Shown here in pieces: positions 13,234 through 18,304 of a DNA stretch of 52,410 nucleotides. The position numbers were made by a program, and so were the translations under genes. The number at the start of each line of letters is the position of its first letter. Within the stretch, counting starts at the first letter, position 1. The DNA comes from Meiothermus sp. (GTDB taxonomy: Bacteria > Deinococcota > Deinococci > Deinococcales > Thermaceae). The DNA is taken from assembly GCF_025060375.1 (NCBI RefSeq), contig NZ_JANXCG010000067.1:1-52410 (forward strand). Direction: 5' to 3'. The notes below the pieces were generated by a model. That model had not been told where the DNA came from and did no database searches. It saw only the letters and a list, made by a program, of their open reading frames with translations.

Positions 13234-14325
13234 CTACCGGGAAAGCACCTCTGCCAACAACCGATGGAAGTGGTGCACCCCCTGCTCCCGCTTCACGCTG
13301 AAGCGGCCCTGGTCGTAGAAGCGCGACCTGACCCCCTTATGCACGGCCTCCACCACCACCTCGTCCTCCCGCTCCACCCGGTCGAGGGCGGCCCCGGCCC
13401 CCGCCTCGAGCTTGCTGGCATCCCAAACGTAGGGCAGAAACGAGACCTTGGTCAGCTCAGGACCCAGGGGGCGCACCACGTTGACCGAGAGGCCCCAGGG
13501 GTAAAAGTTCAGCATCAGGTTGGGAAACACCCAGTAGTAGTAGGCCGCAACGCGCTTGCCGTAGTCAGGCGAGTCCTTGGGTAGCTCAAAGCAGGGCTCG
13601 CCGGGGGCCGCGATGCCCAGTTGCAGGTTGCACCAGTCGTAGATTTCGGTGGTGTAGCTGCCGTAGTCAATGGCGCTGTTGAGCGAGGCGTGGATGTAGG
13701 GAATGTGAAAGCCCTCGAGGTAGTTGTCGCAGTAGAGCGCCCAGTGGGCCCGCACCAGGTAGTCACGGGCGCGGGCTGGCTCAAAGTAAAACTGCTCAAA
13801 CGGCATCCAACCCACGCGCTCCTCTATGGGCCTCAGCACCTCCTCCAGCGGAACGGCGGGGTTCAGGCTGGCGAAGAGGAACTTGCCCTTCCCCCAGGTT
13901 GCAAAGGCCACCTTGGGCAAGTTGTCTTTGGGGCTGGGAAAGCCCTGAACCCCCTCGAACTCCGGCATGGCCTGGAAGCAGCCGTCCAGGCCAAAGCGCC
14001 GCCCGTGGTAGCGGCAGCGCAGGTAGCGGGCGTTGCCGCCGGTCTCGGCCACCAGCATCCCCCGGTGGGTGCAGACGTTGGAGAGGAGGTGCAATCGGTC
14101 GTCAAAGTCGCGGGTCAGCACCAAAGGCTCGTCCAGGCAGCCCTCGAGCAAGATAAAGGGCTTGACCGTGCCGGGGGCCTTCAGGTCGTCGGTGTCGCCC
14201 ACCCACTGCCAGCTCTGGGCAAAGACCTTTTCCTTGCTGGCCTCGTAGAGGGCCGGGTCTTTGTAGAAGCGGGCGGGCAGGGTAGCGGCCTGGGCGATGT
14301 CGGGGTGGACTTCAAGCTCCTTCAT
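13234..14325 (-). CDS. Rieske [2Fe-2S] non-haem iron oxygenase, alpha subunit type
   Basis: A ring-hydroxylating/choline-monooxygenase-like oxygenase of 363 residues. The Rieske cluster ligands are C85 and H87 (CTHRG) and C104 and H107 (CRYHG). The mononuclear iron site begins with DNYLEGFHIPYIH, with histidines 207 and 212. The start at ATG 14325 has GGAGGG just upstream; ATG 14337 is in frame but lies next to the terminator T-run. No reductase or small-subunit gene is adjacent, so the electron donor is unknown. A 23-codon ORF and an intrinsic terminator immediately upstream suggest attenuation control. Confidence 0.92.
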   Translation of the reverse strand: MKELEVHPDIAQAATLPARFYKDPALYEASKEKVFAQSWQWVGDTDDLKAPGTVKPFILLEGCLDEPLVLTRDFDDRLHLLSNVCTHRGMLVAETGGNARYLRCRYHGRRFGLDGCFQAMPEFEGVQGFPSPKDNLPKVAFATWGKGKFLFASLNPAVPLEEVLRPIEERVGWMPFEQFYFEPARARDYLVRAHWALYCDNYLEGFHIPYIHASLNSAIDYGSYTTEIYDWCNLQLGIAAPGEPCFELPKDSPDYGKRVAAYYYWVFPNLMLNFYPWGLSVNVVRPLGPELTKVSFLPYVWDASKLEAGAGAALDRVEREDEVVVEAVHKGVRSRFYDQGRFSVKREQGVHHFHRLLAEVLSR

Positions 14326-14337
14326 GACTCCCTCCAT

Positions 14338-14372
14338 GAAAAAGCGGTGCAGCCAGGACCTGACCGCACCGC
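14338..14372 (-). terminator. Intrinsic terminator/attenuator just upstream of the Rieske gene
   Basis: On the minus strand GCGGTGC (14372-14366) pairs with GCACCGC (14350-14344); the stem extends inwards by about six more pairs including two G-T wobbles, to a 3-nt loop. It is followed at once by TTTTT (14343-14339). The Rieske ATG lies 13 nt after the T-run, leaving no room for a separate promoter. Confidence 0.75.
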
Positions 14373-14385
14373 GCAGGGACGCACC

Positions 14386-14457
14386 TCACTTACCAGCGGC
14401 CACGATGGCTCGAGCAAAGCGCAGGCAGCGGATCTGCATTGCAGGCCAAAGGGGCAT
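14386..14457 (-). CDS. Putative 23-residue leader peptide upstream of the Rieske gene
   Basis: A short ORF beginning MPLWPAMQIRCLRF, ending AAGK and stop. A TAGAAT -10 box lies exactly 6 nt before its ATG, the same geometry as the leaderless genes of this window. The stop codon is 13 nt upstream of the terminator hairpin that precedes the Rieske gene. This is the layout of a transcription attenuator with a leader peptide, but no run of regulatory codons is evident and no clear antiterminator was found. Alternatively it is a short transcript or sRNA of about 120 nt. Confidence 0.45.
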   Translation of the reverse strand: MPLWPAMQIRCLRFARAIVAAGK

Positions 14458-14463
14458 GCCCTT

Positions 14464-14469
14464 ATTCTA
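14464..14469 (-). promoter_or_regulatory. -10 box of the leader ORF/Rieske transcript
   Basis: TAGAAT on the minus strand, 6 nt before ATG 14457. No good -35 is visible. Confidence 0.5.
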
Positions 14470-17439: not shown

Positions 17440-17469
17440 TTGACACTAACTCACAGGTGTCGCTATACT
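17440..17469 (+). promoter_or_regulatory. Promoter of the LIV-type transporter operon
   Basis: TTGACA at 17440-17445 and TATACT at 17464-17469, spaced 18 nt. The spacer holds GACAC (17442-17446) and GTGTC (17457-17461), an inverted repeat that could be a repressor site. Confidence 0.82.
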
Positions 17470-17536: not shown

Positions 17537-18304
17537 GTGCAACTTCAGGTAGACAAGGTCACCCTAAGCTTTGGTGGTGTCCAGGCCCTGAGCCAGGTTT
17601 CGCTCGAGGTGGACAAGGGCGAGCTGGTTTCGGTCATAGGGCCCAACGGCGCAGGTAAGACCAGCCTTCTAAACTGCATCTCGGGCTTCTACCACCCCAG
17701 CTCTGGAAGGATTACCTTTGAAGGCCACGACCTGACCCACGCCCCACCCCACCTGGTCACCCGCTACGGCATTGCCCGGGCCTTCCAGAACATCGAGCTC
17801 TTTACCGGGATGACCGTGCTGGAAAACCTACTGATGGCCCGGCACACCTTCGGCCACTACAGCCTGTGGGACAACCTCTGGTTCTACGGCCGAGCCCTCC
17901 GGGTTAGCGTGGAAAACCGCCGCATTTGCGAGGAGATTATCGACTTCATGGAGCTCGAGCCCTACCGAAAAGCCTTGGTGGGCGACCTGCCCTACGGAGT
18001 GCGCAAGCGGGTGGAGGTGGCTCGAGCCCTGGCCCTCTCCCCCAAGCTACTGCTCCTGGACGAGCCGATGGCCGGCATGACCCTTGAGGAAAAAGAGGAC
18101 ATGGTGCGCTTTATCCTGGATATAAGGGCTGAGCGGGGCACCACGATCGTCCTCATCGAACACGACCTGGGGGTGGTGATGGACATCTCCGACCGCGTAT
18201 ATGTCCTCGATTTTGGACAGGTTATCGCCTCGGGCCTTCCAGAAGAGGTTAGCCGAAACCCAAGGGTGCAGGAAGCCTACGTGGGGGTGGAGCATGGGGC
18301 ATAG
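17537..18304 (+). CDS. LIV-type ABC transporter ATPase (LivG-like)
   Basis: ATPase subunit of 255 residues for a branched-chain amino acid-type (HAAT) transporter. Walker A is GPNGAGKTSL, the signature region is LPYGVRKRVEVARAL as in LivG proteins, Walker B is LLLLDEPMAG and the switch histidine is in IEHDLGVV. It starts at GTG 17537 with AGGAGG upstream. It is the first gene behind a strong promoter, 72 nt before the acyl-CoA synthetase. The transported solute need not be an amino acid. Confidence 0.93.
   Translation: MQLQVDKVTLSFGGVQALSQVSLEVDKGELVSVIGPNGAGKTSLLNCISGFYHPSSGRITFEGHDLTHAPPHLVTRYGIARAFQNIELFTGMTVLENLLMARHTFGHYSLWDNLWFYGRALRVSVENRRICEEIIDFMELEPYRKALVGDLPYGVRKRVEVARALALSPKLLLLDEPMAGMTLEEKEDMVRFILDIRAERGTTIVLIEHDLGVVMDISDRVYVLDFGQVIASGLPEEVSRNPRVQEAYVGVEHGA

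Follow-up and report, generated by a model that had tools for sequence, protein, structure and literature searches.

A conserved leader peptide and a terminator-like hairpin precede a Rieske oxygenase gene in Meiothermus and form a candidate leaderless attenuator

In the DNA of Meiothermus sp. analyzed here (52,410 nucleotides, referred to below as the window), the gene of a Rieske oxygenase is preceded by a 23-codon open reading frame (ORF), the C-terminal residues of which are conserved among relatives right up to the stop codon, and by a covarying, terminator-like hairpin located at a nearly constant distance from that stop codon. On balance, this arrangement appears to be a leaderless, cis-acting leader-peptide attenuator that governs the Rieske gene.

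All elements are found on the minus strand of the window. The −10 box TAGAAT (14464–14469), of the type expected for a leaderless promoter, lies 6 nt upstream of the start codon of the putatively leaderless ORF MPLWPAMQIRCLRFARAIVAAGK (14386–14457), which begins with ATG at 14457 and ends with TGA at 14388–14386. Its conserved tail LRFARAIVAAGK, which together with the stop codon occupies 14386–14424 (G000:C68:14386-14424), is the proposed arrest sequence. A spacer (14373–14385) separates the stop codon by 13 nt from the stem, and by 16 nt from the conserved core, of a hairpin that comprises a 13-bp stem and a 3-nt loop (14344–14372). It is followed by the TTTTT run of the candidate terminator (14339–14343), by the Shine-Dalgarno sequence GGAGGG (14330–14335), and, 13 nt after the TTTTT run, by the ATG at 14325 that opens the gene of the Rieske non-heme iron oxygenase alpha subunit (13234–14325, 363 residues, PF00355 and PF00848), the proposed target of regulation. 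The ORF caller placed the start of this gene at the ATG at 14337; the ATG at 14325, with GGAGGG just upstream, is likely to be the real one, since the genes of the relatives begin there. The box, the ORF, the hairpin, the TTTTT run, and the Rieske ATG had all been listed in an initial annotation of this DNA, and each of them was located where that annotation had put it. On both strands of the 52-kb window, this hairpin is the only one with a stem of at least 11 bp and a T-run, against an expectation of 0.025–0.05 derived from dinucleotide-preserving shuffles. The combination of TANNNT, a start codon 5–8 nt further on, a short ORF, and a hairpin 8–20 nt past its stop codon has a single occurrence in the window, whereas 30 shuffles gave none. 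The arrangement of leader and hairpin is thus far beyond chance.

An orthologue of the Rieske gene is present in each of the 18 Meiothermus genomes. It is preceded by a −10 box and a short ORF in 16 of them, as well as in the two genomes of g2, a related genus, and in all these cases the ORF ends with LRFARAI[IV]AAGK-stop. When searched for with a degenerate pattern, the leader is found as one copy in each of the 18 carriers, always in front of this Rieske gene; none of the 111 genomes of the phylum contains an additional copy before another gene, and the 93 genomes other than the carriers, including 27 from the genus taken as Thermus, contain no copy at all. To account for the last 12 codons of the 18 genomes, at least 22 synonymous and 5 non-synonymous changes are required, whereas in the absence of selection roughly 30% of the changes should be synonymous. 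All 12 of these codons vary at the third position, but only two at the second. The tail of the peptide is under strong purifying selection, and the conserved block extends precisely to the stop codon, for which all three types are in use among the carriers. The N-terminal half drifts, with Trp4, Asp6, Thr9, and Lys/Arg10 recurring. The short ORF that characterizes a leader-peptide attenuator is in this way represented in 18 genomes by a selected and, as predicted from its sequence, translated peptide. No known arrest motif was recognized in the peptide, and no literature on leader peptides or attenuation was found for this Rieske gene or for Meiothermus; the peptide family appears to be undescribed so far.

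In two genomes (G009 and G016), a dispersed repeat of 93 nt (31 codons) is inserted into the leader after codon 4, in frame and without a stop codon. The tail, the stop codon, and the spacing to the hairpin are unaltered by this insertion, as would be expected if only the part of the peptide residing in the exit tunnel mattered. The repeat itself, which is palindromic and ~85–93 nt long, is present at ~40 sites or more in G011 and at 9–17 sites in G003, G009, and G016; its insertion into the leader was noted at the L004 and L007 leader regions.

Selection acting on a peptide at the protein level would also be expected if the leader ORF were a small gene of its own, whose product works in trans (a small regulator, for instance, or a partner of the oxygenase) and whose mRNA is ended by the hairpin, with some readthrough. 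Leader peptides with a function in trans do exist, as exemplified by peTrpL (PMC7298713), and the peptide is kept in g2 in the absence of the hairpin. The leader, however, is always located directly upstream of this one gene and nowhere else, its conservation is concentrated in the 12 C-terminal residues that lead to the stop codon, its drifting first half tolerates the 31-codon insertion, and its stop codon keeps a fixed distance to the hairpin. An independent function of the peptide in trans therefore deserves consideration, although we regard it as unlikely.

The hairpin follows the leader stop codon in 16 Meiothermus genomes. Together with the ORF and the −10 box, it is found in 16 of the 18 congeners; the absence of hairpin and ORF from close relatives, which the initial annotation would have held against its proposal, is thus not observed. 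In an alignment of the 14 distinct hairpin sequences, 91.6% of the cells are paired, compared to 22–40% in slid controls. Five of the 11 pairs have changed on both sides, the number of double-changed cells is 10 versus 3.8 in shuffles, and the covariation score is higher than in all 500 shuffles. The distance between the leader stop codon and the hairpin core is 16 nt in 14 of the 16 genomes, and 15 and 13 nt in the other two. It has remained constant although the sequence of the spacer has diverged; these genomes are closely related and the counts are not independent, so the fixed spacing may in part reflect shared ancestry. The lengths around it vary, from 4 to 7 nt in the loop and from 20 to 62 nt between the hairpin and the gene. 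Alignment folding revealed no covarying structure besides this hairpin, nor any aptamer-like structure, and the region has no match in Rfam at the gathering score, only matches at chance level. A ligand-sensing RNA, one of the options raised initially, is unsupported for these two reasons. Regulation through leader-peptide translation, also raised there, is the option that we favor, because conservation is seen at the level of amino acids and because the distance from stop codon to hairpin is fixed while the flanking lengths drift.

The conservation of peptide and hairpin that the initial annotation had suggested looking for among relatives is thus evident, whereas that of the T-run is uneven. 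The run is good in the window, in M. luteus, and in G007, intermediate in about seven species, and poor in six (CGACCTGGTTTGTT), where the sequence 3' of the hairpin is C-rich and where efficient intrinsic termination is consequently doubtful. A candidate terminator is therefore placed between leader and gene in the window and in most Meiothermus, with a weak U-tract in these six. The claim that expression of the gene depends on readthrough is supported in M. luteus, G007, and the window, in which the hairpin core ends 20–22 nt before the gene, and is weaker where this distance amounts to 44–62 nt. In both genomes of g2 (L046 and L047), there is no such hairpin, so the peptide must act there without the terminator; the stretch between leader and Rieske gene is C-rich and G-poor in g2 and is possibly a Rho site.

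In view of the latter observations, the peptide could also be thought to control Rho-dependent termination or translational coupling, with the hairpin being an accessory element of RNA stability. The C-rich, G-poor stretch of g2 agrees with such a role, as do the C-rich sequences past the hairpin in the six Meiothermus with a poor U-tract. A precedent is provided by the tna operon of E. coli, which works via Rho. Nevertheless, good U-tracts are found in the window, M. luteus, G007, and several other species, in the first three of which they accompany a hairpin only 20–22 nt away from the gene, and this explanation is accordingly an unlikely one. The poor T-runs and the situation in g2 suggest, however, that the effect of the peptide may be exerted partly through Rho or through translation in part of the family.

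A short ORF followed by a terminator, as well as the potential of leader nucleotides 37–51 to pair with the 5' arm of the hairpin in about half of the species (about −14 kcal/mol; −18.8 kcal/mol for nucleotides 28–40 in the window), would also be compatible with a trp-type class-I attenuator, in which amino-acid starvation stalls the ribosome within the ORF and frees an antiterminator helix. We consider this improbable. The alignments of the peptide contain no run of any amino acid, in agreement with what had been noted for the window, and the energies of pairing between ORF and hairpin are not clearly different from those of synonymous-codon shuffles (z between −1.9 and +0.5). Folding of the alignment yielded no alternative helix involving the hairpin arms, so that neither approach, duplex energies against synonymous shuffles or alignment folding, found a conserved antiterminator helix. 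In addition, the 93-nt insertion would disrupt long-range pairing with the 5' part of the ORF.

The inverted repeat GTACAGTC-N4-7-GGCTGTAC might in principle be a DNA operator for a regulator or a roadblock protein rather than an RNA hairpin, and its arms are indeed strongly conserved in sequence among close species, but the variable spacing of the arms (4 or 7 nt), the retention of a G-U pair, the compensatory changes, and the T-run that follows in most species make this very improbable. It is harder still to believe that the hairpin merely terminates the upstream DUF4384 gene, with the ORF arising by chance and the Rieske gene having its own promoter: the window has no other terminator between the DUF4384 stop codon (14493) and the hairpin, but the peptide is conserved, and in many relatives leader and hairpin persist even though a separate upstream terminator precedes the leader promoter or the upstream gene is a different one, so that the comparative data contradict this assignment.

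The promoter elements are as consistent among the relatives as the leader itself. All 16 leader-bearing Meiothermus have the sequence TA[TG]AAT 6–8 nt ahead of the leader start, and in g2 the box is located 11 nt ahead of it. The arrangement in Meiothermus matches that of the −10-adjacent leaderless genes of Deinococcus-Thermus, in which TANNNT precedes the ORF by 6–7 bp (PMC12340547; leader peptides, uORFs, and attenuation are not mentioned in the main text of that paper). No leader is present before the Rieske orthologues of Calidithermus, M. granaticius, MAG015, Deinococcales, Armatimonadota, and Bacteroidota. In the first three of these, and in the Deinococcales inspected, the Rieske gene itself bears such a box, while in the 16 species with the hairpin, the Rieske ATG comes after a Shine-Dalgarno sequence (AAGGAG or GGAGG). 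It thus appears that the leader took over the leaderless promoter of the Rieske gene, the direction of this change being the one that the distribution suggests; the tree of the Rieske proteins does not distinguish a history of one gain and two losses from others. Elsewhere in the window, a near-consensus promoter (TTGACA, 18 nt, TATACT; 17440–17469, plus strand) is found upstream of an ORF for an ABC-transporter ATPase at 17537.

The elements described above can be combined into a mechanism for the favored leader-peptide attenuator. A promoter consisting of a −10 box alone would start transcription at the leader ATG or right beside it, as we infer from the rule known for the phylum, and the leaderless 23-codon ORF would be translated by a 70S ribosome. 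In the presence of a signal, the tail LRFARAI(I/V)AAGK, positioned in the exit tunnel, would slow or block release at the stop codon. The ribosome parked there would extend to about 3–6 nt before the hairpin and would hinder folding of the terminator, allowing RNA polymerase to pass and a Rieske mRNA with its own Shine-Dalgarno sequence to be made. In the absence of the signal, the ribosome would depart, the hairpin would fold, and the transcript would end at about 115–120 nt. In E. coli, terminators located from 8 to about 18 nt past a stop codon are repressed by a ribosome at that codon, whereas no such repression is seen beyond about 27–30 nt; at 17–18 nt the effect depends on the sequence, with a termination efficiency of about 0.12 in one series and 0.8 in the other (PMC4824070). 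As the leader ends 13–16 nt before the hairpin, it falls on the sensitive part of the E. coli curve, where any pausing of the ribosome on the stop codon would be expected to turn into readthrough. This spacing, as well as the predicted location of the tail in the tunnel at the moment of termination, leads us to favor, by analogy with the E. coli data, regulation through a pause that the peptide causes at the stop codon. An antiterminator would not be needed, because the E. coli ribosome at a stop codon can itself repress a nearby terminator. We can further speculate, more tentatively, that the peptides ending with LRFARAI[IV]AAGK-stop may constitute a new family of arrest peptides, acting on leaderless mRNA in thermophiles, in which an amino-acid-like metabolite is sensed in the tunnel and the ribosome is parked beside a terminator at a fixed distance, with no antiterminator RNA.

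Some indication of the nature of the signal is provided by the enzyme and its neighbors. The solved structure closest to the Rieske protein is that of carnitine monooxygenase (E 6e-23), although the similarity to carnitine and glycine-betaine monooxygenases is only distant. Downstream of the Rieske gene in g2, Calidithermus, M. granaticius, and MAG015 comes a gene for the substrate-binding protein of a polar amino-acid ABC transporter, and after it, where read, come permease and ATPase genes. This order is found in six Thermaceae genomes, while in the other 16 the transporter is encoded elsewhere (transporter loci: L065:7136-9900, L066:7217-9932; G040, G041, G008; G000:C79:11883-12716). At the cut-off used, the 22 Thermaceae genomes with a Rieske orthologue all encode the transporter protein, whereas the 28 other genomes of the family all lack it, and both proteins are missing from the genus taken as Thermus. 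In Bacteroidota, an APC amino-acid permease adjoins the Rieske orthologue in three sampled loci (L078, L089, and L114). The proximity of amino-acid transporters in several lineages makes an amino-acid-like inducer plausible, and an amino-acid-like substrate and inducer are a reasonable guess; the signal would most likely be the substrate of the oxygenase or a related compound of this kind, as far as neighboring transporters allow such a suggestion. In a Fimbriimonadaceae genome (L071), the gene adjoining the Rieske orthologue is that of an aldehyde dehydrogenase.

To our knowledge, natural switches based on leader peptides have been described in only a few cases outside proteobacteria, firmicutes, and actinobacteria. 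If the proposed attenuator is real, it would represent a nascent-chain sensor on a leaderless mRNA, working by a simple mechanism of terminator spacing, in a phylum that provides standard ribosome models (Thermus). Its ligand would point to the substrate of a widespread, amino-acid-associated family of Rieske oxygenases, and both the arrest and the ligand would be open to direct test.

The kind of switch proposed here is already known, with TnaC being, in functional terms, the closest apparent analogue. In pyrBI-type attenuation, the leader ORF extends into the terminator and the speed of the polymerase depends on UTP, whereas the Meiothermus ORF stops 13 nt before the stem. The likeness to pyrBI would lie in a ribosome close behind RNA polymerase that prevents the terminator from folding (PMC4824070). 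The leaderless polycysteine sORF attenuators of mycobacteria (Canestrari et al. 2020) resemble the Meiothermus leader in being short ORFs that begin at the transcription start, 5' of the regulated gene, but those attenuators depend on contiguous Cys codons (as reviewed in PMC9031893), whereas the 23-codon form of the Meiothermus leader has at most one Cys and no run, and a terminator-like hairpin comes next. TnaC, the leader peptide of E. coli tnaCAB, has about 24 residues, arrests at its own stop codon, and controls genes of amino-acid uptake and breakdown (PMC8429421, PMC10941005). No sequence similarity was seen between TnaC and the Meiothermus leader, which has no Pro before the stop codon and in which Trp4, conserved in most leaders, is near the N terminus; as the TnaC signature of a conserved Trp and a Pro before the stop codon is missing, the leader is not filed as TnaC. 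Furthermore, TnaC works through Rho, whereas the Meiothermus leader is followed by a hairpin and a T-run, and the Meiothermus ORF is leaderless, with a proposed arrest and a putative ligand. Both peptides are nevertheless short, arrest at the stop codon is proposed for the Meiothermus leader as well, and the enzyme of the Meiothermus type adjoins amino-acid transporters in several lineages. At the stop codon the tail of TnaC sits in the exit tunnel (PMC8429421), and the C-terminal residues of the Meiothermus leader, LRFARAI[IV]AAGK, are likewise conserved up to the stop codon.
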